28,078 bases of DNA from NCBI GenBank assembly GCA_001515955.1, contig LOES01000188.1, forward strand, positions 1 to 28,078, written 5' to 3'. Positions 1-17,396 of this stretch are shown in pieces. The notes under the pieces are model-generated. The model made no database searches. It was not told the origin of the DNA and saw nothing but the letters and a program-made list of their open reading frames with translations. Within the stretch, counting starts at the first letter, position 1. The number at the start of each line of letters is the position of its first letter. This DNA is from Clostridia bacterium BRH_c25 (GTDB lineage Bacteria > Bacillota_A > Clostridia > Lutisporales > Lutisporaceae). The position numbers and the translations under genes are program-made.

Positions 1-645
1 CCACGGGAAGCTATTATCTGGGGTAAAAATAATTTAAAACCTTATTGTCCACCTGGAAAAAAGACAAAATATACAGATACTAATTATCATCTTTTAGGAT
101 TAATCATTGAAAATATTACAGGTAAGCCATTCCATGAAGTATTGAAGGATTATATTTTTGTTCCTCTTGGAATGGAGAACTCATCTATGCTTCACTATTC
201 TGATCCCATAAAAGAATATTCATATCCAATTGCACATTTTAGTATTGATGGGACAATAGGGAATGATTTAAAAAACTATGCTGGACTTGACTATGCTGGT
301 GGTGGAGTTGTAGCTACTAATGAGGATTTACTTAAATTTATGAAGGCTTTAGTGGCAGGTCAAATAGTCTCAAAAGATACTTTAGAAAAAATGAAGAATG
401 ATTCAAATAAATTATATTTTGGAATAGATTATGGTTATGGTATTTGGCAGTTTAGAACTATTCCAGTTTTGATGCCCCAAAAATATAATTGCTGGGGATG
501 TGTTGGGGCAACAGGGGCATTTATGTTTTACCATCCAGGATTGGATGCTTATTTGATTGGAAATTTTAATGATGTTTCTTATAAAAGTAAAGGTCTTAGG
601 TTTATGTTAGAAGTAATTAAAAAATTATTAAAAGTAGCAAATTAA
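1..645 (+). CDS. Serine beta-lactamase-like hydrolase, C-terminal part
   Basis: The open frame enters from the left edge and ends at TAA 643-645, giving about 214 visible residues. It resembles the C-terminal two thirds of class C beta-lactamase / D-Ala-D-Ala carboxypeptidase-like serine hydrolases (Pfam Beta-lactamase). The visible motif YTDTNYHLLG corresponds to the Y-x-N box. GGGVVATNEDLLKF and the late GATGAFMFYHPG segment correspond to the conserved glycine-rich region and the KTG/HTG-like box. The SxxK nucleophile motif must lie left of base 1 and is not seen, so catalytic competence cannot be judged. The gene is followed after 26 bases by an attC-like site, so it is the first cassette gene in the window. 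Substrate is unknown; many family members are esterases or peptidases, not antibiotic hydrolases. Confidence 0.85.
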   Translation, partial: PREAIIWGKNNLKPYCPPGKKTKYTDTNYHLLGLIIENITGKPFHEVLKDYIFVPLGMENSSMLHYSDPIKEYSYPIAHFSIDGTIGNDLKNYAGLDYAGGGVVATNEDLLKFMKALVAGQIVSKDTLEKMKNDSNKLYFGIDYGYGIWQFRTIPVLMPQKYNCWGCVGATGAFMFYHPGLDAYLIGNFNDVSYKSKGLRFMLEVIKKLLKVAN

Positions 646-671
646 TGAAAATAGTTGGGGTTGTATACTTC

Positions 672-783
672 ACATAACAAAAAGTTTACGGTTCCGCTCC
701 TGCCGTCGCTGCACCCAAATTCATGAATCTAAGATAAGAGCTATCTAAGATTCATGAACTTCGTAAACTCAAATACGTTAGAT
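672..783 (+). repeat. attC-like site 1 (short, 112 bp)
   Basis: The left R''-like box ACATAAC is at 672-678 and the right R' box GTTAGAT at 777-783; the latter matches GTTRRRY exactly. Inside, AGTTTACG (683-690) and CGTAAACT (762-769) are perfectly complementary and act as L''/L'. A near-perfect 17-bp inverted repeat (720-736 with 742-758, loop 737-741) forms the apical hairpin. Sequence is unrelated to the long GC-rich sites further along, but the architecture and length are those of a classical integron attC. Confidence 0.7.
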
Positions 784-851
784 GACACGTAATGCAGATT
801 GATTTATGTAAGAAGTACTATTCTTATATTGGGTGTTGGTAGAATATTGTG
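781..851 (+). repeat. Cassette 5' leader, copy 1 (shared with 10947-11017)
   Basis: About 59 of 71 bases match the stretch 10947-11017, which lies in the same place, directly after an R' box and before a cassette gene. It contains an AT-rich stretch that could hold a promoter, but no well-spaced -35/-10 pair convinces me. Confidence 0.6.
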
Positions 852-896
852 AAGTATACATAAGTTTAAATAATGTATAGAAAATGGAGAGTTGTA

Positions 897-1388
897 ATGG
901 GTAAGGATATTATATTTAAAATAGATGAATATGTTTTTAGTTATAGAGTTGCAGGATTATTAGTGCATAATGGGAGGGTTTTGTTGCAAAGACCAAAAGA
1001 TGATACAGCCTACGCAATTCCAGGTGGTCATGTTGCCCTCGGTGAGACAAATGAAGAAACTTTAGTACGTGAATTTAAAGAAGAAATCAATGCAAACATA
1101 AAAGTGGATAATTTGAAATGGGTAGGAGAAATATTCTTTCCATGGGGAGATAAACCTTGCCATCAAATATGCCTATTTTATAATGTGTTATTAACCGAGG
1201 ACAGTAATATACCACTTTCTGGAACATTTTGGGGAAATGAACAGTTAGAAGACAAATCGTTCAAATTAGAATTTTCCTGGATTGATGTTAAGAATATAGA
1301 AACTATAGAGTTATACCCTGTAGAAGCAAAGAAATATCTTGCAGAAGGATTAAATCAAGTAGAGCATTTTGTTTATAAAGAATATTGA
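897..1388 (+). CDS. Nudix hydrolase
   Basis: Nudix pyrophosphohydrolases cleave nucleoside diphosphates linked to another moiety. The Nudix box is clear at about residues 44-66: GGHVALGETNEETLV followed by REFKEEINA fits Gx5Ex7REUxEExGU, except that the final glycine is asparagine. An aromatic-rich segment follows (EIFFPWGDKPCHQICLFYNV). I chose ATG 897 because GGAGAG lies 8 bases upstream; an in-frame ATG at 873 would add eight residues but has no ribosome binding site. The protein is 163 residues, usual for a stand-alone Nudix domain. It is the sole gene of its cassette, between attC-like sites 1 and 2. The substrate cannot be predicted. Confidence 0.9.
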   Translation: MGKDIIFKIDEYVFSYRVAGLLVHNGRVLLQRPKDDTAYAIPGGHVALGETNEETLVREFKEEINANIKVDNLKWVGEIFFPWGDKPCHQICLFYNVLLTEDSNIPLSGTFWGNEQLEDKSFKLEFSWIDVKNIETIELYPVEAKKYLAEGLNQVEHFVYKEY

Positions 1389-1428: not shown

Positions 1429-1579
1429 TTTATATAAGGTGCAAACTCCTATGCGGAGTTTGTTAGATATTAAAACCCAAGGGAGACAATATTCACAATA
1501 ATCGACGCATTTCAGGTCCCGGGTACCGGAAACGGTATAAAAAGGTTATTGGGCAAGGCGTTGAGGGGCATTACCCATC
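1429..1579 (+). repeat. Conserved pre-attC block, copy A
   Basis: This segment between the Nudix stop codon and attC-like site 2 recurs, diverged, at 6612-6748 and 11560-11690 and in shortened form at 9481-9546. It carries two hairpins: CAAACTCC (1442-1449) with GGAGTTTG (1455-1462), and TACCG (1524-1528) with CGGTA (1533-1537) around a GAAA loop. It also has the common phrase AGGTCCCGGGTACCGG and ends in GGGGCATTA shortly before the R'' box. Confidence 0.75.
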
Positions 1580-1768
1580 GTCTAACAATGCCCTCACGCT
1601 TCGGCACGGAGGGCAGGAGCAAGTAGCTTGCGTGCCTCGGGTTGCCGGATGCATTTGCTTAGGAGCGGGAGCAGGGCAACCACACCCCTTCACCGGGAGC
1701 TAAGCTCCGCCAAGTGGAAGGGCTCTGAGGTCCGGTTCAGTGGTGCCGTGAGTGCAGAGACGATATAT
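1580..1768 (+). repeat. attC-like site 2 (long type, degenerate R')
   Basis: R'' GTCTAAC is at 1580-1586, L'' GCCCTCAC at 1590-1597 and L' GTGAGTGC at 1748-1755. The R' position (1762-1768) reads GATATAT, not GTTRRRY, so this site may no longer recombine. Internal stems are GGCACG with CGTGCC, GGTTGCC with GGCAACC, and GGAGC-TAA-GCTCC. After it comes a perfect hairpin CCGGCGC (1785-1791), loop GTCCT, GCGCCGG (1797-1803). Bases 1804-1911 hold nothing else I recognise apart from the next gene's ribosome binding site. Confidence 0.8.
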
Positions 1769-1911
1769 GATATTCCCTGCTAAGCCGGCGCGTCCTGCGC
1801 CGGGTGGCGGGAAGGGCGTTGGAGTAAAGCAATTACGCAAATTAATAATAGGGAATTAAGAGAAAGCAATATATAGAAGTTAAGCAACATTCTGAAAAGG
1901 GGGATATAGAA

Positions 1912-3098
1912 ATGTCTCGTGCGGTTACTGCAGATCATGTAATGTTTAATGAATGTATTCCAGTTTTTCGATCAGAAAAAATGGAGGTTAAAACTGAATC
2001 AAATGATAGATATGGTTATTTGTTATTGGATTTTTCTCTAGAGCAATCAATTGATTTTTCTCATTTCAGCATTAAACCTACTATTGAAGTAACTTTACCA
2101 GGAGCATATTCAGCATTTATAGCTCAAGTAGTTTTACCTAATTGGTTCGAAGAGTTTGACAGTAATACACACTTATTTACAATAGCTCTTAGTGCAATTA
2201 TTTCATTTGTATCTGGAAGACCAATAAAAGCACCTCGAGACGGTTATATGAGGTGGAGACAGCTAGATAATTGTGCTTTAAATACTTTAGCAATACAGCA
2301 TCCTGTTCTAACAGCAGGTCCTGGGCTCATGACTCACGTCTGTCCCAAGAAACTTTTGAAAAGATAAAATCTCAATTACAAGAAACAATACAACTTCTTT
2401 TTGATCTTCCATATAATCTTTATGTTGAATTAATGCAGTCAATTCGCATGATTCATTTAGCTCATTTGAACAAAAGAGGAGATTTTGCTTTGGGTTATTA
2501 TTTGTTGATTTCTGCAATTGAGCCTGTTGCAACATCTGCTATTAAAAGAAAAGCTGTTGCACCAAAACATGAATTGCTAGACCAGTGGAAAGAGTTTGCA
2601 AAAACAAATACTGATTTAAAGGACTTGTTTGATGCATACCAACAAGCAGAAAGCAACAACAAATATATAGGAAAACGTTTTGTTGAGTTTGTGATGAAAT
2701 ACTGTCCTCCAAATAATTGGTATGAATTAGAGCATCCTGAAGAGAATTCTATATCATATACATCAGAAATTTCAGGTGATTTGCATGATTGGAGTTGGGT
2801 TACTAAAAAACAATGGTATGAAATTTATCCTTAAGATCTTACGGAAGAAGAAATAAGGGAGTTACTTACTGATTGCTATAATCATAGGTCTAGATTTACT
2901 CATGAAGGTAAAAATCCTCCACATAAAACACCTGACAGTCACAATAGATTTTTCGATAAAGAAACAATAGTGGATTATGATGAAAAAACTGAAGAATTTA
3001 AAGGAATATATGAAATAGTATTGCCTAATTATCAGCTGATTTCCTTTATTGCTAAGAACTCAATTGTAAATTACTTCAAAGAGAAATTAGGAAGATAA
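1912..3098 (+). pseudogene. HEPN-type (Apea-like) protein, broken by frameshift and nonsense codon
   Basis: Three collinear pieces make one protein of about 395 residues. The first frame (start ATG 1912, preceded by AAAGGGGG) reads to about 2322. A one-base loss near 2321-2325 then shifts reading to the frame with AHDSRLSQETFEKIK. That frame meets TAA at 2832-2834 after KKQWYEIYP and continues in frame as DLTEEEIRELLTDCYNHRSR to TAA 3096-3098. The final piece contains RSRFTH, an Rx4H motif typical of HEPN domains (RNase or nucleotidyl-binding folds of toxin and defence systems). The whole resembles Apea-like HEPN proteins, recognised from memory only. It is the only gene of its cassette. Both lesions leave good homology-like continuity, so decay is recent, or the lesions are sequencing errors. 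Confidence 0.6.
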
Positions 3099-3209
3099 GA
3101 GGAAACAAACGGATTATAATAATTACAGATACAGATTTCGATTATAAGCAAGCATTTATGGCTCGGACGTCCTGTCCTCGTCTGGCTTCGCGGGGCAGGG
3201 AACATCACA

Positions 3210-3341
3210 TATCAACGTATCTGAGTAAAGAGCGTGATTACGGGTCATCCTGCTCATATCGATTTATCGGGTACAAGTGCCGCCAAAGGAGAAAGGCTTC
3301 GAGGGTCCGATTCATCGACATCTCAGATACAAACGTTAGCT
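3210..3341 (+). repeat. attC-like site 3 (divergent sequence)
   Basis: R''-like TATCAAC is at 3210-3216. GTATCTGAG (3217-3225) pairs perfectly with CTCAGATAC (3322-3330). R' GTTAGCT at 3335-3341 matches GTTRRRY. The length is 132 bp. Only the phrase GGGTCCGATTCA near the right end recalls the long sites. Just before it, 3165-3177 forms a small GGAC-GTCCT-GTCC hairpin and the phrase GGCTTCGCGGGGC, also seen before site 10. After it, CGCGCCA (3360-3366), loop TCCG, TGGCGCG (3371-3377) is a perfect hairpin. Confidence 0.7.
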
Positions 3342-3466
3342 GAAATAAAACGGAAGGGACGCGCCATCCGTGGCGCGGAATATATGGGATATGCTTTGAA
3401 GCGATTTCACACTTGGACGAAAAGGCGAAGCTGTTTATAAAGTGAAATAAATTTGAAAATTACCAA

Positions 3467-3572: not shown

Positions 3573-4343
3573 ATGATTACCATTTATGATTGGTTTGGCT
3601 ATGAATTGCCGGTAAAGGAACGTTATCAGTTAATAAAAGAAGCCGGATTTGATGGCGTTTTATTATGGTGGAGTGAATATTTGGATCGTAATGATTACCG
3701 CAACGGACCACAAATTGTGCGAGAAGCGGGGCTTTTTATAGAAAATATCCACACGCCATTCCAAGTTCAAAACAACCTCTGGCTTGACAATTTGGACGGT
3801 GAAGCCTCAACCGATTGCTATTTGCAATGTGTTGCGGATTGCGCCGAATTTGAGATTCCGACAATGGTGGTACACCTGCCCGATGAAGACAATCCATATA
3901 ACGCATTGGGACTGGATAGAATCAAGAGAATCGCTGAAAAAGCTGAACAGCTTGGCGTTAATGTTGCGTTGGAGAATTTATGGAACCTTGCCAATTTATC
4001 GTATGTACTGGAACAAGTAGATTCCCTGCGTATCGGATTCTGTTATGACTGCGCACATCACAACCGCTACTATCCGGGCAATGATTTATTATCCATGTAC
4101 GGTTCCCGGTTGATGGCACTACATCTACATGATAATTACGGAAATGCCACACACCGGTTACCTTTTGACGGCACGATAGATTGGTCTACAACCATGAAAA
4201 AAATTGCGGAAACGGATTATTCAGGCGCGACTGCAATAGAGGTCATGAATTGGGGTTATAAGGATTTATCGGCAGAGGAATTTTTACAAGAATCGTTTGA
4301 GCGAGCAAAAAGGCTGGAAGCATTAAAACTCTATAATCCATGA
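3573..4343 (+). CDS. Sugar phosphate isomerase/epimerase-like TIM barrel (AP endonuclease 2 family)
   Basis: The 256-residue protein has the pattern of Pfam AP_endonuc_2 (xylose-isomerase-like TIM barrel). Candidate metal ligands occur in the expected order: His in MVVHLP, Glu in NVALENLWN, Asp and His in FCYDCAHH, His in ALHLHDN, and Glu in ATAIEVMNW near the C-terminus. Such proteins isomerise or epimerise sugars or inositol derivatives using divalent metal, or act on abasic DNA; the substrate here is unknown. ATG 3573 follows AGGAAG at normal spacing. A 21-codon open frame (3524-3589) overlaps the start and may be a leader or chance. No attC follows directly; an IS91-like remnant lies downstream, so this unit and the lipoprotein now share one cassette interval. 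Confidence 0.8.
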   Translation: MITIYDWFGYELPVKERYQLIKEAGFDGVLLWWSEYLDRNDYRNGPQIVREAGLFIENIHTPFQVQNNLWLDNLDGEASTDCYLQCVADCAEFEIPTMVVHLPDEDNPYNALGLDRIKRIAEKAEQLGVNVALENLWNLANLSYVLEQVDSLRIGFCYDCAHHNRYYPGNDLLSMYGSRLMALHLHDNYGNATHRLPFDGTIDWSTTMKKIAETDYSGATAIEVMNWGYKDLSAEEFLQESFERAKRLEALKLYNP

Positions 4344-4687: not shown

Positions 4688-5494
4688 TTAAGCGGCAGGA
4701 GGCGAAAGTCCGGTTCGTAGCAGACCGGTATATCCGCAAGACTGGCAGGTTTGAGGATTTCTGCCGAGGATTTTGAAAAGCAGTTTTTCTGTGGTCAGCT
4801 TCTCTTTTGGAAGAAGAGAAGTGCCCGTAAGCTTTTTGCAAAGAGGGAGTTTTGCTTGCTTACCACGACTTGACAAAAACCCATAATGCCGAATTTTCAT
4901 AAAACCATGGGGCAACACGTGCATCAAAAACCGACGGATAAATTCTTCAGCCGAAATGCTCATCTCTTTCCAGCGGTTAGAATCCTTGTAGTCCCGCCAT
5001 TTAAATGTTACCTGTCCATTTTCAAAATTCAGTAACCGGTTGTTGGAAATAGCTACGCGATGGGTGTAACGTCCCAGGTATTCCACTACGCAGGCAGCGG
5101 TTTTAAAAGGCGGCTTGCAGTAGACAACCCATTCCTTGTTGTAGCAGTCGTTCAAAAGAGAATGGTCAATATCTGGCTTTTGCAATTTAAGCAAGGCTAA
5201 AAACTTACCTCTGAATTTACGGGACAGAGCTTTTACCGGCAGGAAGAACTTCTTTTTGGAATCTACCCATTTACCGAGCGTGTTCAAGCCACCAGCAGGA
5301 ACAATGCAGTGGATATGAGGATGGAAGGAAAGATTTTGCCCCCATGTATGCAGTACGGCAGTCAAGCCAATTGTTGCGCCGAGATATTTATGGTCGGAGG
5401 CAAGCTCGCGGATGGTTTCGGCAACACAGCGAAACATGAGATTGTACATGTCTTTCTGGTTGCTGTAAATGACGGCATTCAGTTCCCCGATCAC
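4688..5494 (-). pseudogene. IS91-family HUH transposase, N-terminally truncated
   Basis: IS91-type transposases nick single-stranded DNA with HUH and tyrosine motifs and move by rolling-circle-like transfer. The 268-residue remnant keeps the HUH motif HPHIH at residues 58-62 (preceded by LHTWGQNLSF) and the tyrosine motif YLGRYTHR with Tyr139 and Tyr143. A CQSCG motif remains near the C-terminus. Family members carry a cysteine-rich zinc-binding N-terminal domain and a VFTLP segment before ELN; both are absent, and the frame begins right at the deletion junction with IGELNAVIY. No ribosome binding site precedes the residual ATG. Likely inactive, although the catalytic core remains. Confidence 0.85.
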
Positions 5495-5855
5495 GTAAGT
5501 TGTCGATCACAGAGAAGAACATAACGATTTCGGCTTTGGACATGATGACAGGCAATTCCCTGTGAATACGCCGGCACGGAATCATTTGATAGTTTAAATT
5601 TTTCTCCAGTACAGCTCCAAATACGAATCGGAAAGCACTATTGTAGATGTTGACGGTACCGGAGCTTCTACCGATTTCCAAAAGGTGAAGTAGAAATTCC
5701 CGAATTTCCGGCTCCGCCATTTCGCACAAGAGGCGATTGTCATAGTAGTCCAACAGTACACGGATGCTTTTGAGATATTCTGCTTCCGTATCGGCGGATA
5801 GTCCTCGCAGTCGAACCTCTTCTTTGACTTTTTGGATGACTTCGTCGTTGGTCAT
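5494..5855 (-). pseudogene. Tyrosine recombinase, N-terminal SAM-like domain only
   Basis: The first 120 or so residues match the core-binding (SAM-like) N-terminal domain of phage-integrase-type recombinases: LSADTEAEYLKSIRVLLDYY, then FRFVFGAVLEKNLNYQMIP and VMFFSVIDNLRD. The catalytic domain with R...HxxR...Y is absent, because the frame jumps into transposase DNA around 5494-5505. The out-of-frame tail continues to 5388 without meaning. The start ATG (complement of 5853-5855) has a good AAAGGAG. This belongs to the IS91-like element; it is not an integron integrase, since the diagnostic parts are missing and the context is the IS. Confidence 0.8.
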
Positions 5856-6021: not shown

Positions 6022-6609
6022 ATGAAAAGAGTGCTACTAATAATTATTGCTGTTGCTATCCTCTGTGTAGGATGTGGTAAAAAGGAAAGCCAATCAAATA
6101 TAGAGAATGTAATACAAGATACAACCCCTAAAAACGAAACTAAAACTTCTCTTTCTCCCACTGGTAAATATCTTGCTGAAGCATACGGCACAATTACTAC
6201 TATTACAGCAGGGGGACTTTATCCCTATGAGGGTATTCGTGTGTTGGACGCAGATAATGATGAAGTTCTTTGGAAAATGGAACCTGGATATTATACCGTA
6301 GATTTTACGTGGTCGCCTGATGGTCGCTATGTAGGAATTTACTATGAAGTACGAGTTTATGGAGAAAGCATTGTTTTTGATACAAAGGATAAAAAATTAA
6401 TATCATTGCCCAAACTAGTTGATATTGCTCCTCACTACAGCGAAAGTGTGAAGCCGCAAGAAAATCGACCTGACCCATATTTCAGTATAGCTGGATGGAA
6501 GAATGTAGAAACGGTAATTGTAGATTTTCGTTGGAGTAAGGAAGATGGCGAATATTTCAATGGTCAATATACTTTTAATATGAAAACACATACTGTGTCT
6601 TATAAATAG
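6022..6609 (+). CDS. Lipoprotein with beta-propeller-like repeat segment
   Basis: A type II signal peptide is clear: MKRVLLIIIAVAILCVGC, with Cys18 as the lipidation site and KKES following. The protein should be anchored on the outer face of the membrane. The mature part (177 residues) includes SPTGKYLAEAYG and FTWSPDGRYVGIYYE, the WSPDG-type phrase of TolB/WD40-like propeller blades, but only two blades fit, so a full propeller is unlikely. GGGG lies before ATG 6022. Function is unknown. It is the last gene of the interval between attC-like sites 3 and 4, directly after the IS91-like remnant. Confidence 0.8.
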   Translation: MKRVLLIIIAVAILCVGCGKKESQSNIENVIQDTTPKNETKTSLSPTGKYLAEAYGTITTITAGGLYPYEGIRVLDADNDEVLWKMEPGYYTVDFTWSPDGRYVGIYYEVRVYGESIVFDTKDKKLISLPKLVDIAPHYSESVKPQENRPDPYFSIAGWKNVETVIVDFRWSKEDGEYFNGQYTFNMKTHTVSYK

Positions 6610-6611: not shown

Positions 6612-6748
6612 GTGCAAATTCCTACGCGGAGTTTATGAGATATTTAAACTCGAGAGAGACAATATTTACATAATCGACACATGACAGGTCCCGGCTACCG
6701 GAAGCGATATAAAGATTATTGAGTAAAGCGTTGCGGGGCATTATCCAT
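6612..6748 (+). repeat. Conserved pre-attC block, copy B
   Basis: Diverged copy of the block at 1429-1579, with the same order of phrases: GCAAATTCC..GGAGTTT, GAGAGACAATATT, AGGTCCCGG, TACCGG and GGGGCATTA. The TACCG hairpin is weaker here (GAAG loop). Confidence 0.75.
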
Positions 6749-6749
6749 C

Positions 6750-6934
6750 AGCTAACAAAGCGCTCACACTGCGGCACGGCGGGCAGATGCAAGGAGCATG
6801 CGTGCCTTGGGTTGCAGAAGCCATTGCTCTGGAGAAGGAGCAGCAACCACACCCCTTCACCGGGTGCGAGCACCATTAGGGAGTAGTGCTCTTGGGTCCG
6901 GTTCAGGGACGTCGTGAGTGCGGAGACGTTAGCT
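6750..6934 (+). repeat. attC-like site 4 (long type, intact)
   Basis: R'' AGCTAAC (6750-6756) is fully complementary to R' GTTAGCT (6928-6934); with one flanking base each side the match is 8 bp. L'' GCGCTCAC (6760-6767) pairs with L' GTGAGTGC (6914-6921) with one G-T pair. Internal stems: GGCACG/CGTGCC, GGTTGC/GCAACC and GGTG-CGAG-CACC. Right after it, CGCGACA (6953-6959), TCG, TGTCGCG (6963-6969) is a perfect hairpin. The R'' also matches the R' of site 3, the start of its own cassette interval. Confidence 0.85.
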
Positions 6935-7052
6935 GACAGACCGAGCAATTGGCGCGACATCGTGTCGCGTATTTTGGGGAAAGGCTTTATAAGTATATTG
7001 TTGTGAATGGTTAGGCGTCAAAATAAACAATTAGGAACTATGGGGGATTCAA

Positions 7053-7591: not shown

Positions 7592-7611
7592 TCTTGGCTT
7601 CGAAGGCCATC

Positions 7612-7778
7612 CGATAACACAGCACTCACGTGGGTATAGCCTATAGAGTGCGATAAGTGAAACAAAAGGCTTTCTTATAAATCTTCAATTTACATCCCTT
7701 CACCGGGAGCTGAGCTCCGCCAGGGGGAAGGGCTCAGGAGTTCGGTTCAGTGGTGTCGTGAGTGCGAAACCGTTAGGC
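7612..7778 (+). repeat. attC-like site 5
   Basis: R'' CGATAAC (7612-7618), L'' GCACTCAC (7622-7629) fully complementary to L' GTGAGTGC (7758-7765), R' GTTAGGC (7772-7778). The left apical part differs from the other long sites (no GGCACG stem), while the right part keeps GGAGC-TGA-GCTCC and CGGTTCAGTGG. The length is 167 bp. Confidence 0.8.
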
Positions 7779-8860: not shown

Positions 8861-8867
8861 TTGTGAA

Positions 8868-9546: not shown

Positions 9547-9626
9547 AGCTAACACACAGCAGTATTTCCGCAGTCCGTGGAAAAGCACCAAAATGACTGT
9601 AACCATTCTGGTGCTTAAATGTAAGC
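9547..9626 (+). repeat. Half attC-like site 7
   Basis: R'' AGCTAAC (9547-9553) follows the usual GGGGCATTATCCATC lead-in, but the expected L'' and GC-rich interior are absent. A hairpin TTTCCGC-AGTCC-GTGGAAA (about 9565-9583) and a second, AGCACCA...TGGTGCT (about 9594-9617), follow. GTAAGCT near 9620-9626 is one base off a matching R'. Either this is an unusual short site or only the left edge survives, joined to the intron remnant. Confidence 0.5.
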
Positions 9627-10075: not shown

Positions 10076-10145
10076 AAAGACTATACTTAACATTAGTAGT
10101 AGATATTTATGAAGAGTTAGATTGAAGAACGTGAGGAATAATCAA

Positions 10146-10715
10146 ATGAGTAACTTAGAAATGATACAGGCAATTGCTGATTTAGTCGAAGACGCATGTA
10201 AAAGTGATTCTAATACATTTGGGTATGGAATATGGTCACATCATATTGTTTATGTAGTGAAATATGCAAAGCTGTTAGCAGAAAAGTTAAGTGCTGATAT
10301 GGAAGTAGTAGAAATTGCTGCACTACTGCATGATTACGCTGGCATAAAAGATAGTTCAATGGCAGAAGAGCATCATATTCATGGAGCAATTGAGGCGGAA
10401 CGAATTCTTTTACAATTTGGGTATTCCGAAGAAAAGATTGAAAAAGTGAAGGAGTGTATTCTATCTCATAGAGGCAGCGTTTCATCAGAAAGGATAACTC
10501 CAGAAGCTGAATGTATAGCAAGTGCTGATGCAATATCGCATGTATTCCAAGTTCCTTCGTTACTGCATCTAGCATATGTTAGGCAGGGCATGAGCATTGA
10601 TGAAGGAAAACAATAGGTGCTTAATAAGTTAGAGAGAAGCATGAAAAAACTATGTCCCGAGGCAAGGGAAATAGTAAATGAGTATTATTCAAATGTTAAA
10701 GCGGTACTATTGTAA
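10146..10715 (+). pseudogene. HD-domain phosphohydrolase, interrupted by an amber codon
   Basis: The frame shows an HD-superfamily metal phosphohydrolase: His in WSHHIVYVVKYAKLL, the HD doublet in ALLHDYAGIKD, HHIHGAIEAERIL, CILSHRGS and SADAISH. Such proteins hydrolyse phosphate esters, often nucleotides. Reading stops at TAG (10614-10616) after DEGKQ, but the same frame continues VLNKLERSMKKLCPEAREIV to TAA 10713-10715, as homologues would; TAG probably replaces TGG or CAG. All metal ligands lie before the stop, so the shortened protein might still work. ATG 10146 follows GAGGAA. It sits between the intron remnant and site 8. Confidence 0.75.
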
Positions 10716-10764
10716 GATATTGCCTTGGTTATGATGGGTATACGTCGGAGGGCAGACTACTCCA

Positions 10765-10949
10765 CCTAAACAAAGCCCTCATATGGCACGGGGCGAGTAG
10801 ACCCAAGGCATATGCGTGCCTAGGGTTGCAGGAGCCATTACTCTGGAGCAGGGGCAACAACCACATCCCTTCACCGGGAGCGAAGCTCCGCCAGGGGGTA
10901 GAGCGCTGAGGTCCGACTTAGTGGTGTCGTGAGCGCGGAGACGTTAGCT
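10765..10949 (+). repeat. attC-like site 8
   Basis: R'' reads CCTAAAC (10765-10771, one extra A), L'' GCCCTCAT (10775-10782), L' GTGAGCGC (10929-10936), R' GTTAGCT (10943-10949). Internal GGCACG/CGTGCC, GGTTG/CAACC and GGAGC-GAA-GCTCC stems are present. Confidence 0.8.
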
Positions 10950-11017
10950 GACAGATAATGCAGGTTGATTTGTGAAAGAAGTACTATTCTAATATTACGT
11001 ATTGGTAGTATATTATG
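10947..11017 (+). repeat. Cassette 5' leader, copy 2 (shared with 781-851)
   Basis: Overlaps the end of R' of site 8 and runs towards the GNAT gene. It matches 781-851 at about 59 of 71 positions, although the genes that follow (Nudix, GNAT) are unrelated. Confidence 0.6.
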
Positions 11018-11044: not shown

Positions 11045-11539
11045 ATGTTTTTTCAATCAAATGGTTTATATGTAGATTTAGTTGAGGATAGAGATTTATA
11101 CGAAGTTGTTGAAGTTTATAATTCTAATAAACATTTTTTAGTAAGTCATATGGATAAGGATAAAGTAACAAATGAATGGATACTTCAAGAACTTGAAACA
11201 ATGAGAGAAGTTGGATTCTATTCATGTAAAATAGTCGAAATAAGTTCTGAGAAGATAATCGGAGTAATGGACTTTAAGGTAGGCGAAGAAACCTATTTAT
11301 CACTATTGATGATACATAATGATTTTAAAAGTAAAGGCTTTGGGAAACTAATTTTTCAGGATTTTGAGGGATATGTCAGATCAATAAATAGCAAATGTAT
11401 TAGAATAGATGTAGTCACTAATTATAACAATTCTGTACTTGATTTTTGGATTAAAAACGGGTTCATTAAATCTAAACACATGGAGTTAAATTGGACGGGG
11501 AAGATTTTACCTGCCGTTACCATGAAGAAGAGCCTGTAA
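11045..11539 (+). CDS. GNAT family N-acetyltransferase
   Basis: The 164-residue protein has GNAT motif A with the acetyl-CoA pyrophosphate loop KSKGFGKLIF (about residues 97-106, Q/RxxGxG/A type). This is preceded by the beta-4 strand EETYLSLLMIHNDF and followed by CIRIDVVTNYNNSVLDFWIKNGF, the usual C-terminal N...A..F/Y..GF segment. It transfers an acetyl group to an unidentified amine. ATG 11045 follows AGGGGG. It is the sole gene of a cassette that starts with R' of site 8. Confidence 0.88.
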   Translation: MFFQSNGLYVDLVEDRDLYEVVEVYNSNKHFLVSHMDKDKVTNEWILQELETMREVGFYSCKIVEISSEKIIGVMDFKVGEETYLSLLMIHNDFKSKGFGKLIFQDFEGYVRSINSKCIRIDVVTNYNNSVLDFWIKNGFIKSKHMELNWTGKILPAVTMKKSL

Positions 11540-11559: not shown

Positions 11560-11690
11560 ATATAAGGTGCAAACTCCTATACAGAGCTTGTGAGATATTT
11601 AAATCCGAGAGAGACAATATTTACATAATCGAAACATGTCAGGTCCCGGGTACCGGAAACGGTATATAAAGGTTATTAAGCAAGGCGTGG
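11560..11690 (+). repeat. Conserved pre-attC block, copy C
   Basis: Same phrases as 1429-1579. It includes a perfect TACCG (11651-11655), GAAA, CGGTA (11660-11664) hairpin. It ends in AGCAAGGCGT, fused directly to the interior of site 9. Confidence 0.75.
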
Positions 11691-11828
11691 GCGTGCCTTG
11701 AGTTGCCAGATGCATTTGCTCTGGAGTGCGAGCAGCAACCACACCCCTTCACTGGGAGCGGAGCTCCACCAGGGGAGAAAGGCTTAACGGTCCGATTCAG
11801 TGGTGTTGTGAGTGCGCGACCGTTACAC
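11691..11828 (+). repeat. attC-like site 9, left arm deleted
   Basis: The interior begins at GCGTGCCTTGAGTTGCC; R'', L'' and the GGCACG half-stem are missing. The right part is intact: GGAGC-GGA-GCTCC, CGATTCAGTGG, L' GTGAGTGC (11808-11815) and R' GTTACAC (11822-11828). Without R''/L'' the site should not fold as an attC. Confidence 0.75.
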
Positions 11829-11912
11829 CATAGATCGAGCAAATGGCGCACCGCCCTGGCGCGATTTATGAATGGGTTAGGTTTTGCAGAATATTGATCC
11901 ACATTAGTAGAA
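11822..11912 (+). repeat. Cassette 5' leader, second type, copy 2
   Basis: Near-identical to 8649-8739, including the short MNGLGFAEY frame and a weaker CGC..GCCCT..GCG hairpin. Confidence 0.75.
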
Positions 11913-11959
11913 TGATGCAACACAAAAATTATTTGTATTTGACGAAGGAGACGAAACTG

Positions 11960-12802
11960 ATGAATAACACGAATATCGTTAAGCCTATTCAACGCTCTAA
12001 TCTCCGATTGGCATTAGGGAAAACATACTATTCACTATTGCGTTTTGTACAATGGAAAAAGCATAGGCCCTTTGCTAAATCATTTAATGATAAAAAAATG
12101 CCCGAAGTCCAATTTAAGCATAAAACCATACTGTTGCGGAAGCTCAAAGAGGTTGATATGCAGTATCAATATAGGAAAATCATAAACTTAAAGATTGCCG
12201 TATCTAAAATTAATGGTATTGTAATTCACCATGGAGAGACATTTAGCTATTGGAAAGCAATAGGCAAACCCACTTATAATAATGGCTATGTTGATGGAAT
12301 GGTCATTGTCGGAGGTGCCGTAACTTACGGTGTTGGCGGTGGATTGTGTCAGCTTTCAAATCTAATATACTGGATGACACTTCATACTCCTCTTCATGTG
12401 ATCGAGCGTCATCGGCATGGATATGATGTCTTTCCGGATTCGAACCGTACTCAGCCTTTCGGCAGTGGGGCAACCTGTTTTTATCCATATGGAGACTTAA
12501 TGATCTATAACGGGACTAAAGCTGATTATCAGCTATGCGTGGAGGTCGGCGATGAATATTTAGAAGGGGAGTGGCGTTCTGACGCACCTCCGGAATATAA
12601 ATATGAAATAGTTGAAAAGAACCATATAATGAAAGGCGAATACTGGGGTGGATTTAGCCGCCATAATGAATTATACCGTCGAACATATGACTTGGATGAC
12701 AGTTTTCTTTTCGAAGAATTAGTTGTAGAAAACCACGCATTAATGATGTATTCACCATTTATTTCGGAACCGGCCAACTACAGTGACAACTATGCAAAAT
12801 GA
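11960..12802 (+). CDS. vanW: VanW family protein
   Basis: The 280-residue protein has the VanW core: NGIVIHHGETFSYWKAIGKP, then GGAVTYGVGGGLCQLSNLIY with the GGGxCQxSN motif, then HVIERHRHGYDVFP and SGATCFYPYGDL. vanW occurs as an accessory gene in some vancomycin-resistance clusters, but its biochemical role is not established and many Firmicutes have unlinked homologues; there is no vanHAX here. I start at ATG 11960, eight bases after GAAGGAG; longer in-frame starts overlap the leader repeat. No signal peptide is seen. Sole gene of the cassette between sites 9 and 10. Confidence 0.88.
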   Translation: MNNTNIVKPIQRSNLRLALGKTYYSLLRFVQWKKHRPFAKSFNDKKMPEVQFKHKTILLRKLKEVDMQYQYRKIINLKIAVSKINGIVIHHGETFSYWKAIGKPTYNNGYVDGMVIVGGAVTYGVGGGLCQLSNLIYWMTLHTPLHVIERHRHGYDVFPDSNRTQPFGSGATCFYPYGDLMIYNGTKADYQLCVEVGDEYLEGEWRSDAPPEYKYEIVEKNHIMKGEYWGGFSRHNELYRRTYDLDDSFLFEELVVENHALMMYSPFISEPANYSDNYAK

Positions 12803-12909
12803 GCATAATCTTTACTTAAAGTTATATCGAAATGTTCTGATAATGCGAATAAGAGGAAATTTAGGTCGCAGCATCCGTGCTTCTCCTGCTTCGCGGGGCT
12901 CAGTCCATC

Positions 12910-13096
12910 TTGTAACAATGCCCTAACGCGGTGGCATGTTTGGCAGGATCAAGAAGCGTGCATGCCTTGGGTTGCAGGAGCCATTGTTTTGGAGCTAGGT
13001 CAATAACCATACCCCTTCGCCTGGAGCAAAGCTCCGCAAGGGAAAATGGCTCTGTGAGTCCGATTCAGTGGTGTCATGAGTGCGAGGTCGTAATAT
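12910..13096 (+). repeat. attC-like site 10
   Basis: R'' TTGTAAC (12910-12916) is complementary at six of seven bases to GTTACAC, the R' that starts its own cassette (11822). L'' GCCCTAAC (12920-12927), L' ATGAGTGC (13076-13083). R' (13090-13096) is GTAATAT, one base off GTTRRRY. The internal stem is GGCATG/CATGCC here instead of GGCACG/CGTGCC, a compensated change. GGAGC-AAA-GCTCC is present. Confidence 0.8.
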
Positions 13097-13157
13097 GACA
13101 GCTCATGCAAGATAAGCCGTAAATAGTGAGATTAAAAAAACAAGGGGAGGAGTATAG

Positions 13158-13847
13158 ATGGATAGTAGAAGGTCTTTATGGAATGCACAGCAGACTCACT
13201 TAAGAGAGATATTGTTAAAGCCTGATGAGTTTGATGAAGCTATGAAGATATGCTTAGAACAGCATTCCATGGTGCATTCATCAGAAATGAGCGGAACAAA
13301 TGCCGAGACATTTGAAGATGAATTATGGAAAGGCTTAGATAATACAACATTTAGAACAGCAGTAGGGGTAAAGGGGCGTACTGTTGCATATGGGATATGG
13401 CATTCAACTCGAATAGAGGATATTACAATGAATATATTAGTTGCTGGTAGTAATCAGGTTATTGATTCAGATAATTGGATTAGTGGAATAAATTCAAGTA
13501 TCTATGATACCGGAAATGCTATGAATGCTGGTGAGATAATGGAGTTTAGTAAAAATATCAATATGAAAGAATTACGTAATTACAGAATTGCTGTAGGTAG
13601 AAGAACCAGAGAGATTATTCGAGGATTTAAGCCAACTGATTTAAAGAGAAAGTTTGATGATATAACACTTAAGAAGATTTTTGATATCGGTGCTGTTTCG
13701 AAAGATGAAGCAGCCAGTTGGCTTGTAGATTTTTGGGGCAGGAAGAATGTTGCCGGAATCTTGTTAATGCCAGTTACACGTCATCATACCGTACACATAA
13801 ATGAATCTTTAAATGCTAAGAGCAAAGCTAATCGAAAACATAAGTAG
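13158..13847 (+). CDS. DinB-like putative metal-dependent protein
   Basis: The 229-residue protein has the layout of DinB/YfiT-like four-helix proteins: EQHSMVHSSEMSG (His near the first helix), GIWHSTRIEDITMN (His in the second), and VTRHHTVHINES near the C-terminus. Three spaced histidines could bind a divalent metal. Phrases such as DTGNAMNAGEIMEFS and YRIAVGRRTREII suggest a specific conserved subfamily, but I cannot name it. Family members include thiol-dependent transferases; the substrate is unknown. A strong AAGGGGAGGAG precedes ATG 13158. Sole gene of its cassette. Confidence 0.7.
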   Translation: MDSRRSLWNAQQTHLREILLKPDEFDEAMKICLEQHSMVHSSEMSGTNAETFEDELWKGLDNTTFRTAVGVKGRTVAYGIWHSTRIEDITMNILVAGSNQVIDSDNWISGINSSIYDTGNAMNAGEIMEFSKNINMKELRNYRIAVGRRTREIIRGFKPTDLKRKFDDITLKKIFDIGAVSKDEAASWLVDFWGRKNVAGILLMPVTRHHTVHINESLNAKSKANRKHK

Positions 13848-13900
13848 ATAAGGAATTTTCCAGGGTTAATAAGGCGAGTCTCTGTGGGGCATGAGCTATA

Positions 13901-14087
13901 AACTAACAATACCCTCACGCTGCGGCACGGTGGGATGAAGCAAGGAGTATGCGTACCTTGGGTTGCCGAAGTATTTGCTCTGGAGAGAGGCAGTACACCA
14001 CTCACCTTTGCCGGGTGCGAAGCTCCGCCAAGGGGACAGACTCTGAAGGTCCGGTTCAGTGGCGTCGTGGGTGCGGAACAGTTAAGT
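13901..14087 (+). repeat. attC-like site 11
   Basis: R'' AACTAAC (13901-13907), L'' ACCCTCAC (13911-13918), L' GTGGGTGC (14067-14074), R' GTTAAGT (14081-14087, matches GTTRRRY). It keeps GGTCCGGTTCAGTGG. It is followed by the perfect hairpin CCACAC (14106-14111), GTCCT, GTGTGG (14117-14122). Confidence 0.8.
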
Positions 14088-14186
14088 GAAATCGGATGGG
14101 GGAAGCCACACGTCCTGTGTGGACTTGCTATTGGTATTCTTTGGAGATTTTAATATTGGAAAGCTTGTTGCATAAGGAGTTAAATA

Positions 14187-15020
14187 ATGATTAATTGGTA
14201 TTGGATTTATAGAGATTTTGTAAATGCATATGATAGCTGTCCTAAAGAAGATAAATGGCTTAAACACTATGAAGAGTTTTATTTAAAGCCCAACAATATT
14301 CTTTTACAAAACATACATTTTAAACCTAGAGGATTTGATTCATTGAAGGATGTATTATCACGAATAAATGAGCAAGGCTTTGCATGTTTTGAGGGCGTAA
14401 GAAATAGCATTGGGGATATAAAAGATTTTGAATGTATGATACAAAATACCGCAAATGACATATTAAAACGATTTGGAAATAATTTGATTGATACGGATGT
14501 ATATGTTATCGTCGGTTTAGATTGCACAAACATATATTCAATAATGTATAACGGCAAAAACGTTACAGTTATTTGTTTAGAGTCCGTAAAAAATGATGTA
14601 AAAGTTTTAAATCTTCTGTTATCCCATGAAATTCATCATTGGGTTAGAGAAAGAAATACAGGAGCTGTCCTATTTGGAAACTGCGTAGGTGAACGGGCTG
14701 TAACAGAAGGGCTTGCTATAAACTGCTCAGAGTTTTTATTCCCTGGTTATGAAATTAGTGATTATTGCTATGTTCCGGAAAGTAGTGTAAATTGGGTAAA
14801 AGAACATTGGAAAGAGGTAGACCAAATATTTTTAAATAGAGCCAATGATAGCGATATTTCGTCGGGCTTTTTCACACGGAATAAAACAACAAACTTGATA
14901 AAAGGTATGCCGTCGCGAATAGGATATGTATATGGAAGTTTAAAGGTTTCCGATTACATAGAAAGAAGAGGAAGAAATCCCATAGAGCTAGTAGGGATAT
15001 CATGGAGTGAATTTTTTTAG
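14187..15020 (+). CDS. Putative zinc metallopeptidase (HExxH protein)
   Basis: The 277-residue protein has LLLSHEIHHWVRERN at about residues 148-162, an HExxH zinc-protease motif. GERAVTEGLAINCSEF follows about 20 residues later, where the Glu of VTEG could be the third ligand in a gluzincin arrangement. The layout recalls DUF2268-type predicted Zn-dependent proteases, from memory. No signal peptide or membrane segment, so probably cytoplasmic. TAAGGAG precedes ATG 14187. Sole gene of its cassette. The substrate is unknown. Confidence 0.7.
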   Translation: MINWYWIYRDFVNAYDSCPKEDKWLKHYEEFYLKPNNILLQNIHFKPRGFDSLKDVLSRINEQGFACFEGVRNSIGDIKDFECMIQNTANDILKRFGNNLIDTDVYVIVGLDCTNIYSIMYNGKNVTVICLESVKNDVKVLNLLLSHEIHHWVRERNTGAVLFGNCVGERAVTEGLAINCSEFLFPGYEISDYCYVPESSVNWVKEHWKEVDQIFLNRANDSDISSGFFTRNKTTNLIKGMPSRIGYVYGSLKVSDYIERRGRNPIELVGISWSEFF

Positions 15021-15068
15021 AAATAGCAAAGCTAAGTCTACGGTCTGAGATCAGGGCCGTACAACATC

Positions 15069-15228
15069 AGCTAACAACGGCATTCACACTGACGGGAATA
15101 GCTGTCATTAGAAGGCTGACGCTGTTTCCTTGTGTCAGTTCCACACCACTTCACCGAGTGACAAGCACCGCCGGGGGATATTCCTTAAAGGTCCGGTTCA
15201 GTGGCGTTGTGAGTGCGGACCGTGACAG
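15069..15228 (+). repeat. attC-like site 12 (different apical part)
   Basis: R'' AGCTAAC (15069-15075), L'' GCATTCAC (15080-15087), L' GTGAGTGC (15209-15216). R' (15222-15228) reads GTGACAG and is degenerate. The left interior is unrelated to other sites but forms its own hairpin from ACTGAC to GTCAGT (about 15088-15139). The right part keeps GGTCCGGTTCAGTGG. A hairpin CCGTGCA-TCCA-TGCGCGG follows at 15245-15262. Confidence 0.75.
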
Positions 15229-15287
15229 TGAAATTGGTCGCAGGCCGTGCATCCATGCGCGGTTATGAAAAGAAGAGGTGAATATAC

Positions 15288-16046
15288 GTGAAAGTAGCGG
15301 ATTTTTCAAAAATTGCAAACAAGTATGATGGAAACAAGTATAGACAAAAAGTTGAGCAGGACACTTTTTTAAAAACATATATCGAACAGAATAAACAATC
15401 AGAATATAATATTCTGGATTTAGCTTGTGGAACTGGAATTTATATTTGTAAACAGATGGAGTATTTCAGAAGTGAAGGTATTAAATGGTATGGACTAGAT
15501 GCATCATTGGACATGCTTGAAAAGGCAAAAGAGAAAATAATAGGTGTGTCTTTTGTCAATGGTATTGCTGAGAGTATGCCATATGAATCGAACAAGTTTG
15601 ATTTTATTGTAAACAACTATGCATTTCAACATTTCACTGGAAAAGCAGAGGCTTTAGATGAGGTTACTCGTGTACTAAAAACAAACGGTATTTTCGAAAT
15701 GCACAATATTGCAATTCATCAGATGAAAAGTTGGTGGGTATATAAATACTTTCCATCAGCTTATTTTGAAGATTTAAAAAGGTTTTGGGATAAAGACTTG
15801 ATTTTCCATGAGCTTTCCTATAGAGGATTTGATGTCGAGTTAAATATCAAGTATCAGATGCAGCAAATGAAAGCGGTTGATTTATTAGAATATGCGAAAA
15901 ACAGAGATATTTCTGTTCTTACATTAATAGATGAAGATGAATACTTAAGAGGTTTGGAGATATTAACTTCTGATGTATATAATAACCCGGAGGAACGAAT
16001 AGTTTGTGATTTTGCTGAGTTATATTGTATAGCAAAGAAGCTTTAA
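15288..16046 (+). CDS. Class I SAM-dependent methyltransferase
   Basis: The 252-residue protein has motif I ILDLACGTGIYICKQ (about residues 42-56), motif II acidic residue in WYGLDASLDMLEKA, and the post-I segment FDFIVNNYAFQHFTGKAEAL with RVLKTNGIFEMHN. This is the UbiE/Methyltransf_11 layout; the methyl acceptor is unknown. The start is GTG 15288, preceded by AGAGGTG. It is the last cassette gene. No attC follows, and its last 27 bases overlap the end of the convergent glycoside hydrolase gene, marking the array edge. Confidence 0.88.
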   Translation: MKVADFSKIANKYDGNKYRQKVEQDTFLKTYIEQNKQSEYNILDLACGTGIYICKQMEYFRSEGIKWYGLDASLDMLEKAKEKIIGVSFVNGIAESMPYESNKFDFIVNNYAFQHFTGKAEALDEVTRVLKTNGIFEMHNIAIHQMKSWWVYKYFPSAYFEDLKRFWDKDLIFHELSYRGFDVELNIKYQMQQMKAVDLLEYAKNRDISVLTLIDEDEYLRGLEILTSDVYNNPEERIVCDFAELYCIAKKL

Positions 16047-17396
16047 AGTCCATAGACAGAAGGAATCCCCCAACATTCTATCGTCCATATGCAATTTGTT
16101 GTTATCCACTGCAGCATTAAGTTCCTTTGTTGCCTGCAATGAACGTGAATCAGGATCTGTCAGGCAATTGTTCCTATGGCTGCTTACCATGTATTGATTA
16201 ATCTCATACCTTCCATTTTCCAAGTTATTCAATACTATTTCCACATCGGTTTCCATTTGTCCCGGATTTGAAACTAAAACACAGATCCTTTCATCATCTA
16301 TTGTCGCAACGGCCCTATTCTCCAAATATTCTTCAATCATAAGCTCATGACTGCCCAGCATTTTAAACATGGTCATTGTATGCCCACTTGGTGTAGGAAT
16401 ATATTCATTCTCCTCATTAAGTATGAACATTGTTCTGCCTATTTGTTGATTTGGGTTATGGAAAGTACACCATGGGAACATTTTTAGGTTAGGGTAGTGG
16501 GAGCCTAATATCATTCCGGCAATTTCACCAGCTGCGTTTTGAATATTTGTTGGACGCCCTGCATCGCCAATTCCGACCCTCAATCCATATTCCGTCATAA
16601 GTAAAGGAAGATCAGGGAGATTAAGCTCATTTATCATCTCCTGATGACGCATGCAAAATTCCATGATACGCTGAGGATTTGTATGATACTCATGCATAGA
16701 ATAGAAATCAATGACTTTTTGATCATCCTTGCTTAAAAGCTCTAAAAACTCTTGCCAGAAGTGCCAATGGGTAATTCCATGGGATAATCCAAAACCGCCG
16801 ATCTTTAGGGGAATATCGTAATGATGCTTTTGATTTAATCTTTGGATTCCACGATAGGCACACTGATATAGACTATAATACTCTCTTATGTTTAATTTCC
16901 CGAATTGAACAAGTTCAACCTCATTGCAGCACTCGATATAAGTTATGTTTGGACATAGATTCTTATAAAACTCTACAACCTTTTCGAAAACCTCCTCATA
17001 TTGTTGGTATGTGATAATACCATCTATAGTTTCCCGTTCATATCTCCGCAAATTCAACAAAACCTTATCGGCACATTCTGCATGTGAAGTTAAATATTCT
17101 TGAATATGAGCATTAACTGGTGATGGAACGGTTAATGGCCAGTCATAGTCATAATGATTTTTATCCCCCTGATATCTGTTAACTCCGATAGGGTAATCCC
17201 AATAATATGTATTGCTCCGATAATCCCAGACTTCGTCCAAGGTGATAAATAACCTGATGATGGAAGGACGTCCAATAACTTTTTCCATTACCTTAGGAAA
17301 TGAAGGGGATGGAGTGTAACGTAATGTTGTATTTTGAAATTTTTCAACATGGGGCCATTCTCTATAGGCATTTTTCGTATCCACAGTTATTCTCAT
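16020..17396 (-). CDS. Clan GH-A glycoside hydrolase (GH39-like)
   Basis: The 458-residue protein has a TIM-barrel glycosidase pattern. NITYIECCNEVEL (about residue 160) carries the Asn-Glu acid/base motif of clan GH-A and PLLMTEYGLRV (about residue 278) the nucleophile Glu. FYSMHEYHTN and MFPWCTFHN lie at other active-site strands. A C-terminal beta domain follows (VATIDDERICVLVSNPG). It resembles GH39-type beta-xylosidase/iduronidase relatives, but the family assignment is by eye. There is no signal peptide, so it should act on imported, perhaps phosphorylated, glycosides. AAGGAGG lies before the ATG. It is divergent from the PTS operon, which suggests shared control. The C-terminal residues LCYTI overlap the methyltransferase gene and may have been altered at the array junction. 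Confidence 0.75.
   Translation of the reverse strand: MRITVDTKNAYREWPHVEKFQNTTLRYTPSPSFPKVMEKVIGRPSIIRLFITLDEVWDYRSNTYYWDYPIGVNRYQGDKNHYDYDWPLTVPSPVNAHIQEYLTSHAECADKVLLNLRRYERETIDGIITYQQYEEVFEKVVEFYKNLCPNITYIECCNEVELVQFGKLNIREYYSLYQCAYRGIQRLNQKHHYDIPLKIGGFGLSHGITHWHFWQEFLELLSKDDQKVIDFYSMHEYHTNPQRIMEFCMRHQEMINELNLPDLPLLMTEYGLRVGIGDAGRPTNIQNAAGEIAGMILGSHYPNLKMFPWCTFHNPNQQIGRTMFILNEENEYIPTPSGHTMTMFKMLGSHELMIEEYLENRAVATIDDERICVLVSNPGQMETDVEIVLNNLENGRYEINQYMVSSHRNNCLTDPDSRSLQATKELNAAVDNNKLHMDDRMLGDSFCLWTLKLLCYTI

Follow-up and report, generated by a model that had tools for sequence, protein, structure and literature searches.

A probable integron cassette array of a new variety in a Clostridia genome

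Introduction

Which enzyme serves an array of gene cassettes in a genome stretch that shows no integron integrase? This question is raised by contig LOES01000188.1 of Clostridia bacterium BRH_c25 (assembly GCA_001515955.1), whose positions 1 to 28,078 on the forward strand form the window analysed here, that is, the whole stretch of 28,078 nucleotides. Its first 16 kb had been proposed, from the sequence letters alone, to be an integron-like gene cassette array with long attC sites. This original prediction noted that integrons are rarely described in Firmicutes, which agrees with the excerpt of PMC9024848, where one complete integron (in Limnochorda pilosa) and a few clusters of attC sites lacking an integrase (CALIN) are reported for this group; a review also lists Firmicutes integrons (PMC8618304). 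Our analysis suggests that the window covers the far portion, by now in partial decay, of an integron-like cassette array on a Clostridia chromosome, for which a recombinase without the IntI patch and with a HARP-like domain is to be expected; we put the probability of this reading at roughly 80%. The array would then represent a new variety of integron cassette array, probably served by a patch-less integrase.

Layout of the array

In the first 16 kb of the window, unrelated genes of the + strand alternate with long, related + strand elements. As originally predicted, there are twelve attC-like sites, nine near-complete and three remnants, all twelve on the + strand: the repeats were found independently at the same places, and the core pattern of their 3' arm had 6 exact matches in the window compared to 0 in 100 shuffles. 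About 15 unrelated + strand open reading frames (ORFs) lie between the sites, so that the predicted succession of short unrelated genes was also observed. The - strand ORFs scanned before position 16,020 were just those of a broken IS91-like element, the remaining ones having at most 121 aa. An ordinary chromosomal stretch follows beyond 16,020, with genes that by reading encode a phosphotransferase system transporter, an isomerase-like protein and a regulator, and the host chromosome has a Clostridia-like character. The window begins inside the array and, in agreement with the prediction, no integrase gene was found among its scanned ORFs.

A near-complete site opens with an end resembling R'' (..AAC), which a short spacer separates from the L'' arm; after a long middle part with structure come the L' arm, another spacer and R'. 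Sites whose R''-L'' and L'-R' arms are complementary stand between single same-strand genes, the arrangement by which an integron is recognised at the level of the array, and a cassette would comprise one + strand gene (or a pair) with an attC at its 3' side. The near-complete sites are site 1 (671..783; AAC at 676, R' G at 777), which is of a divergent type with the L stem GTTTACG/CGTAAAC and a reverse-strand scan match at 678 with a span of 101; site 2, of the ~180-nt class (1577..1769; AAC 1584, R' G 1762); site 4 (6747..6936; AAC 6754, R' G 6928); site 5, located 3' of a PEMT gene (7609..7780; AAC 7616, R' G 7772); site 6 (8464..8657; AAC 8471, R' G 8649); site 7 (10762..10951; AAC 10769, R' G 10943); site 8 (12907..13098; AAC 12914, R' G 13090); site 9 (13898..14089; AAC 13905, R' G 14081); and site 10, the last of the array (15066..15234; AAC 15073, R' G at about 15222). 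The remnants are site 3, remnant or divergent (about 3202..3343; L stem GTATCTGAG/CTCAGATAC, R' GTTAGCTGA at 3335), a 5' arm with its upstream leader at 9500..9600, seen in repeat family D7 and by reading, and a copy without R''/L'' that was found by the site model at 11681..11830.

The box motifs described originally apply to most sites, but less strictly to R'. Six of the nine near-complete sites have an R' with GTT, three of them fitting GTTRRRY in full (777, 7772 and 14081) and three being one base off, whereas R' is degenerate in sites 2 (GATATAT), 8 (GTAATAT) and 10 (GTGACAG). The unusual length that had been claimed for the sites holds for the window's class, in which they span 150-200 nt. 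A site model built from eight window copies recognised nine copies in the window with E-values of 1.5e-57 to 4.6e-35 (eight being its own training rows) and the remnant at 3254 with an E-value of 0.0013, and an Rfam search of the window returned nothing at gathering scores.

Related arrays

A scan of genome contigs for the core pattern yielded 20 loci: 15 from six Clostridia or Bacillota metagenome-assembled genomes (MAGs), 3 from 'Calditrichales bacterium MX18-03', 1 from Paracoccus and 1 from Geminicoccaceae. The latter two gave no match to the site model and look like chance. In the other loci, the window-built model found sites with E-values down to 6.1e-55, and 86 model matches in 17 loci were used for the comparison of cassette ends. 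In the 4.7-Mb genome of MX18-03 (G007), 25 matches to one site were located on three contigs (13, 7 and 5), each forming one cluster on one strand, and genome G001 had 18 matches on four contigs with a single strand per contig. The original prediction had named repeats spread over the genome without regard to strand as the sign of an unrelated repeat; the clusters seen here are of the opposite kind, and a dispersed repeat is therefore disfavoured.

We considered whether MX18-03 documents a transfer across phyla. NCBI assigns it to Calditrichota, but the GTDB class draw includes G001 and G003; the label looks wrong and the idea was rejected. By GTDB class, its loci (L012, L017, L019 and L045; JAJGRE01) appear to belong to a Clostridia genome. 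Placement of the genomes by 16S rRNA gave a match in 3 of 12 and led nowhere. When one window protein was compared with G001-G007, the matches were distant only (26-32% identity), and none of these genomes was shown to be the window's species.

The PEMT methyltransferase encoded in the window (7053..7571, +) also occurs in the relatives' arrays, with 90% amino acid identity in G007, 81% in G001 and 22 residues at a contig end in G005. Relative to G007, the DNA is closely similar between the R' box (~6928) and ~7604, just 5' of R'', and the attC sites diverge thereafter; relative to G001, the match spans the gene, with the leader outside it.

Complementarity of cassette ends

If cassettes move as circles, their two ends should match each other. 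We compared the sequence after the R' G|TT with the end of the same cassette (before the next AAC) or with R'' of the same site, scoring 6 R-box and 14 outer positions. For 53 cassettes of the window and its relatives, with a few misplaced R' positions left in (e.g. 623 in L004), the own-cassette score was 665 (mean 12.5/20), compared to 456.3 ± 10.7 for permuted pairs (maximum 498 of 2000). The mean numbers of matching R-box and outer positions were 4.83 and 7.72 for own ends and 3.46 and 5.03 for random pairs; same-site comparison was close to random, with 3.66 and 5.34 (44 values, one empty contig-end row being scored as 0), or 3.74 and 5.47 without that row. The own-cassette match thus extends past the 7-bp R box. 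A further 13 cassettes from arrays outside the model scored 137 compared to 116.8 ± 5.6 (maximum 135 of 2000), several single pairs being equally high in the same-site comparison. For the cassette that ends in site 6, start (7772) and end (8471) match in 6/6 R-box and 7/14 outer positions.

The two ends of a cassette were therefore once neighbours, as they would be in a circle joined at G|TT, and such complementarity is the signature of cassettes that form circles and are reinserted at this junction. Within the window by itself, the signal was weak (49 own versus 42 same-site, five pairs), which fits decay of this part of the array, as do the three remnants, the three R' without GTT, the insertion element and the attC of the PEMT cassette, which is unlike that of its relative in G007.

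Fold of the sites

Both ends were present in 60 of the 84 sites that had been grouped. Fifty-eight of these entered a consensus fold over mixed site classes that led nowhere, and 24, 18 and 6 entered folds of single classes. The L arms covary: 20 distinct arms of model-found sites paired at 7.1 of 9 positions, compared to 5.91 ± 0.21 in permutations, none of the 2000 being as high. An uninterrupted L stem of at least 8 pairs was present in 21 of the 60 sites, many others having one mismatch or a shorter stem. The 24 sites of the 180-nt class gave a consensus fold of -38.2 kcal/mol for the bottom strand and -23.3 for the top strand, and six G007 sites gave -33.9 and -30.5 kcal/mol, respectively. 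In the bottom-strand fold of the 24 sites, 37 G-T cells were counted versus 13 A-C cells, in a structure itself derived from that strand, and changes on both sides were seen in 4 of 37 pairs, the class being too alike for more. A set of 32 arms, some of which had been selected by a pairing scan, was left out of the evidence. Use of the bottom strand is at most suggested by these folds, and known integrons use this strand of attC according to the excerpt of PMC2727003. An early idea, that these attC sites have no extrahelical bases as a counterpart to the missing patch, was abandoned for lack of proof.

The recombinase of the related arrays

The integron integrase model TIGR02249 did not exceed its cut-off of 265 bits in any of the seven genomes with sites, several of which are incomplete MAGs. 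Five of the seven, however, encode a tyrosine recombinase of 350-388 aa that this model matched in pieces, with model positions ~180-235 missing and scores of 174.7-225.4 bits. The missing part corresponds to the additional domain around patch III, described in excerpts of PMC2426708 and PMC9668308 as the recognition mark of IntI. Between the two parts that can be matched to Vibrio cholerae IntI4 (PDB 2a3v), the recombinase used as query has 16 residues and IntI has 58. All 33 rows of canonical IntI carry 42-56 extra residues, essentially between query positions 250 and 280, whereas each of the 25 new loci has at most 4 there; L104 has 28 extra residues, but at query positions 65 and 118. Likewise, all 82 aligned homologues have the query's 27 residues at 258-284 without an insert. 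R216, K241, H306, R309, H332 and Y341, which we take to be the catalytic residues of tyrosine recombinases, are invariant in these 82 sequences. The additional domain is said, in the title of a paper by Messier and Roy from 2001, to be necessary for IntI activity. Among the papers listed by our searches, which covered titles and the beginnings of abstracts in open-licence literature other than preprints, none describes an integron integrase that lacks this domain or has a HARP-like one.

At their N-terminus, the recombinases have an additional domain with a weak resemblance to HARP (PF07443, structure-specific DNA binding). The N-terminal piece alone scored 26.6 bits with the HARP profile (cut-off 25), and matches at E≤0.01 were obtained for 33 of the 82 homologues and for 0 of 4 Bacteroidota proteins. 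A model of the domain has five strands and two main helices, its top Foldseek row being 4o66 (E 0.047), and the HARP fold is described as five strands and two helices in the excerpt of PMC4666394. The full recombinase model had a predicted template modelling score of 0.49, and its domain arrangement was not used.

A tree of 72 rows was built by a quick method with a midpoint root and without rows for XerA or Treponema, the rows NEW_L097, NEW_L102, XER_L135, INTI_L167 and INTI_L168 being named for dropping. Canonical IntI formed one clade (SH-like approximate likelihood ratio test, SH-aLRT, 99), six XerC/D-like rows fell outside it, and the new proteins formed a grade beside IntI that included five partners of IS91-type elements; given a long-branch warning, the order is a lead only. 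Housekeeping XerC/D was also considered as the array recombinase and rejected: its genes in G001, G004 and G007 sit elsewhere and branch apart, and three such loci gave 1 downstream and 0 upstream palindromes.

Linkage of recombinase, attI-like site and array

At three loci (L041, L042 and L045), the recombinase gene is located before the sites and points in their direction; L042 has a single site, which two ORFs, by eye of insertion-sequence type, separate from the gene. Two further contigs (L043 and L044) end 109 and 630 bp past the recombinase stop codon. A generic scan for palindromes (AAC-L''...L'-GTT) around the recombinase genes of 27 loci gave 39 hits in 188.5 kb downstream and 4 in 196.7 kb upstream, compared to 15 in 411 kb of block shuffles. 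Downstream palindromes occurred at 15 of the 27 loci, and 5 of the 39 came from previously known arrays; at least 11, including all four of L096, are unlike attC in appearance. Eight loci were also read with the threshold lowered slightly, and L090, L094, L097, L100 and L105 then showed attC-like sites of 65-200 nt. In L105, on a 6.5-Mb contig of G342, an array of 85-nt attC-like sites follows a recombinase gene with stop codons; this array may be frozen.

At 19 canonical IntI loci, the same scan gave 22 palindromes in 206 kb upstream and 5 in 132 kb downstream; canonical arrays therefore tend to lie at the other side of the gene. The sole Firmicutes IntI in the scan (L174, G317) is canonical and accounts for 2 of these 5, having two 83-nt palindromes downstream instead of upstream. 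Eight control loci (five IS91-type partners and three XerD-like) gave 6 in 57.7 kb downstream and 1 in 44.3 kb upstream. Four of these 6 lie in G131, and three strong ones read as attC-like sites of 62-65 nt near an IS91-type pair (L169, G131:C1:660000-679900); for G131, no match that includes the N-terminal domain was among those listed in the phylum search.

An attI-like pattern ending in G|TTA... was found after the recombinase stop codon in 24 of 29 loci, compared to a mean of 2.1 and a maximum of 7 in 500 shuffles; the pattern was drawn up after reading the loci, and the match in L105 lies beside an apparent site. The start of the first cassette at the attI-like place matched its own end at 18/20 positions in L041 and at 15/20 in L042. 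In L045, where the model missed the first attC, the place adjoining the gene matched at 10/20 and a later start at 14/20. An integrase gene that adjoins attI and an array, the arrangement of an integron platform, thus appears to be present in the relatives.

Occurrence in other genomes and on plasmids

Among 398 genomes of the phylum, one of which is that of the query, 30 had a match to the recombinase at E ≤ 1e-60. In 18 of the 398 the match begins no later than query position 17, which is inside the N-terminal domain; a stop is present in 4 of these 18. Canonical IntI exceeded the cut-off in 2 of the 398 genomes versus 49 of 249 Pseudomonadota. Among plasmids, 374 records matched, and within the best 15 of these 374 the top rows that reach the N-terminal domain were from Bacteroidota. 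Four plasmid recombinases have no insert at the place in question and scored 193.5-206.7 bits with TIGR02249. That of the Rufibacter tibetensis plasmid NZ_CP012644 (L196:9497-10951; 199 bits, no insert) is followed by small same-strand genes, among which six attC-like sites were picked by eye, measuring 41-58 nt between AAC and GTT. Their own-cassette matches were 5, 6, 6, 6 and 6 of 8 versus 3, 1, 3, 3 and 2 in the same-site comparison, and a start for the first cassette at 11,083 matched at 7/8.

The recombinases of Pontibacter (L194:9641-11095) and Rufibacter both have 484 aa and, by eye, seemingly two tandem N-terminal domains, recalling SMARCAL1, which has two HARP domains. Some intergenic stretches of Chryseobacterium also look attC-like by eye.

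Alternative explanations

Several results weigh against parts of the reading given in the Introduction. The whole recombinase scored 24.4 bits with the HARP profile, under the cut-off of 25. The 18 sites of G003 fold in the reversed order of strands (bottom -8.4 versus top -12.1 kcal/mol). Furthermore, the palindrome scan of four plasmids gave 2 hits downstream, none convincing, and 6 upstream, and it missed the Rufibacter sites.

The first alternative is that the window is a CALIN built by a canonical integron elsewhere and that the patch-less recombinase near the related arrays is a bystander. The window indeed shows no integrase among its scanned ORFs, CALIN are among the few integron elements reported from Firmicutes (excerpt of PMC9024848), and canonical IntI does occur, albeit in two genomes, in the phylum. 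However, none of the seven site-bearing genomes, several of them incomplete, has an IntI over the cut-off, the sites of L041, L042 and L045 come after the patch-less recombinase gene and are separated from it by an attI-like junction, and recombinase and downstream sites recur together in other genomes and on a Bacteroidota plasmid. We therefore regard a bystander role as improbable.

It is less probable still that the system is a canonical integron of the known kind in which IntI has simply diverged. Such a view would draw on the like plan of the arrays, on the Treponema integrons, whose intI is co-directional with the cassettes (excerpt of PMC3607928), and on the relatedness of the recombinase to IntI, as indicated by 175-225 bits with TIGR02249 for five proteins. 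Yet these scores stay under the cut-off, the additional domain that defines IntI is absent from every copy compared, and canonical IntI forms its own clade, in a tree without a Treponema row. Lastly, a dispersed repeat or miniature inverted-repeat transposable element (MITE) moved by a transposase, such as that of an IS91-like element, can practically be dismissed: the repeats are long and similar and an IS91-like remnant lies inside the array, but such a family would not be confined to single-strand clusters as in G007 and G001, nor does it predict own-cassette complementarity.

A proposed cassette system with another integrase

The reading of the window as part of an integron-like array with a patch-less recombinase thus appears the best explanation. 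The integron-type cassette array in Clostridia that was originally predicted is borne out by the arrays, their box structure and the complementarity of own ends. The system is integron-like at the level of the array, but the recombinase of the relatives fails the test that defines IntI; this was not foreseen in the prediction, which had proposed to look for an intI with the integron-specific patch. Since the relatives' recombinase lacks this patch, a search for a patch-bearing intI left of base 1 would probably be empty. Instead, a XerA/IntI-like tyrosine recombinase may be expected there, reading toward the array and followed by attI. Cassettes would be cut out as circles by this enzyme and inserted at G|TT. 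Its substrate would be one strand of attC in folded form, probably the bottom strand, and its N-terminal HARP-like domain may take over from the missing additional domain of IntI the recognition of the folded hairpin.

The system resembles canonical integrons in its one-strand arrays of one-gene cassettes, its R''/L''/L'/R' sites, the G|TT junction and the combination of a tyrosine recombinase with an attI-like site. It differs from them in an integrase that is without the insert of ~42 residues, has an extra N-terminal domain and reads toward the array, in sites of up to ~200 nt (57-142 nt for canonical attC in the excerpt of PMC2727003) and in a complementarity of own cassette ends that extends past the R box. 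Chromosomal integrons of Treponema are similar in that the integrase is transcribed toward attI, along the cassettes; these loci are reported with intI, and the likeness is one of gene direction (excerpt of PMC3607928). The partner recombinases of IS91-type Y2 transposases (L169-L173) are close kin of the catalytic part and branch among the new proteins. None of the five has the N-terminal domain, four read straight into the Y2 transposase gene (the fifth being masked), and no attI-like site was seen in them. XerA is a housekeeping enzyme of chromosome-dimer resolution that is not known to serve cassette arrays, and its matched chains (PDB 4a8e and 5hxy) are without the N-terminal HARP-like domain.

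Tentatively, and with slightly less than an even chance in our view, there may be two classes of integrons: the IntI class and a second one, of greater age or parallel origin, that is common in Clostridia, occurs on plasmids of Bacteroidota, never had or has lost the IntI patch and recognises folded single-stranded attC by an N-terminal HARP-like domain for structure-specific DNA binding. If true, integron finders that require the patch would call such arrays CALIN or miss them. A cassette system that works without the additional domain would show that proteins have more than one way to recombine cassettes through folded DNA. It would account in part for the seeming scarcity of integrons in Firmicutes, extend the range over which gene cassettes are known to be exchanged and provide an outgroup for the origin of IntI.

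Other features of the window

Besides the PEMT gene, the cassette genes, all on the + strand, encode a serine hydrolase of beta-lactamase fold (PF00144) that is cut by the window start (1..645), a NUDIX hydrolase (873..1388), a xylose-isomerase-like TIM barrel (3573..4343), a lipoprotein-like protein (6022..6609), an FMN reductase (7851..8420), a DUF3796 protein with a helix-turn-helix (HTH) regulator (8856..9412), an HD domain protein (10122..10616), a GNAT acetyltransferase (11045..11539), a VanW-like protein (11843..12802), a protein without an assigned function (13158..13847) and a predicted Zn protease of the DUF2268 family (14187..15020). The cassette region at 1912..2834 (+) holds two overlapping ORFs (1912-2367 and 2271-2834), neither with a Pfam match. 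A methyltransferase gene (15288..16046, +) follows the last attC at the array end, and no attC of its own was seen.

The broken IS91-like element within the array (4688..5855, -) consists of a Y2_Tnp transposase fragment and a SAM-like fragment of a tyrosine recombinase. In elements related to it, a short recombinase that branches among the array recombinases is paired with a Y2 transposase. At 27006-28076 there is an open-ended ORF whose product resembles a TnpB-like transposase and has no Pfam match. A near-perfect inverted repeat of 29 bp with a 1-nt loop (8802-8860) lies just 5' of the DUF3796/HTH pair and is possibly an operator. Finally, the leaders of ~140 nt before three attC sites (1429-1572, 6602-6744 and 11557-11699) are 63-87% alike while the genes they follow are different, hinting at exchange outside G|TT.

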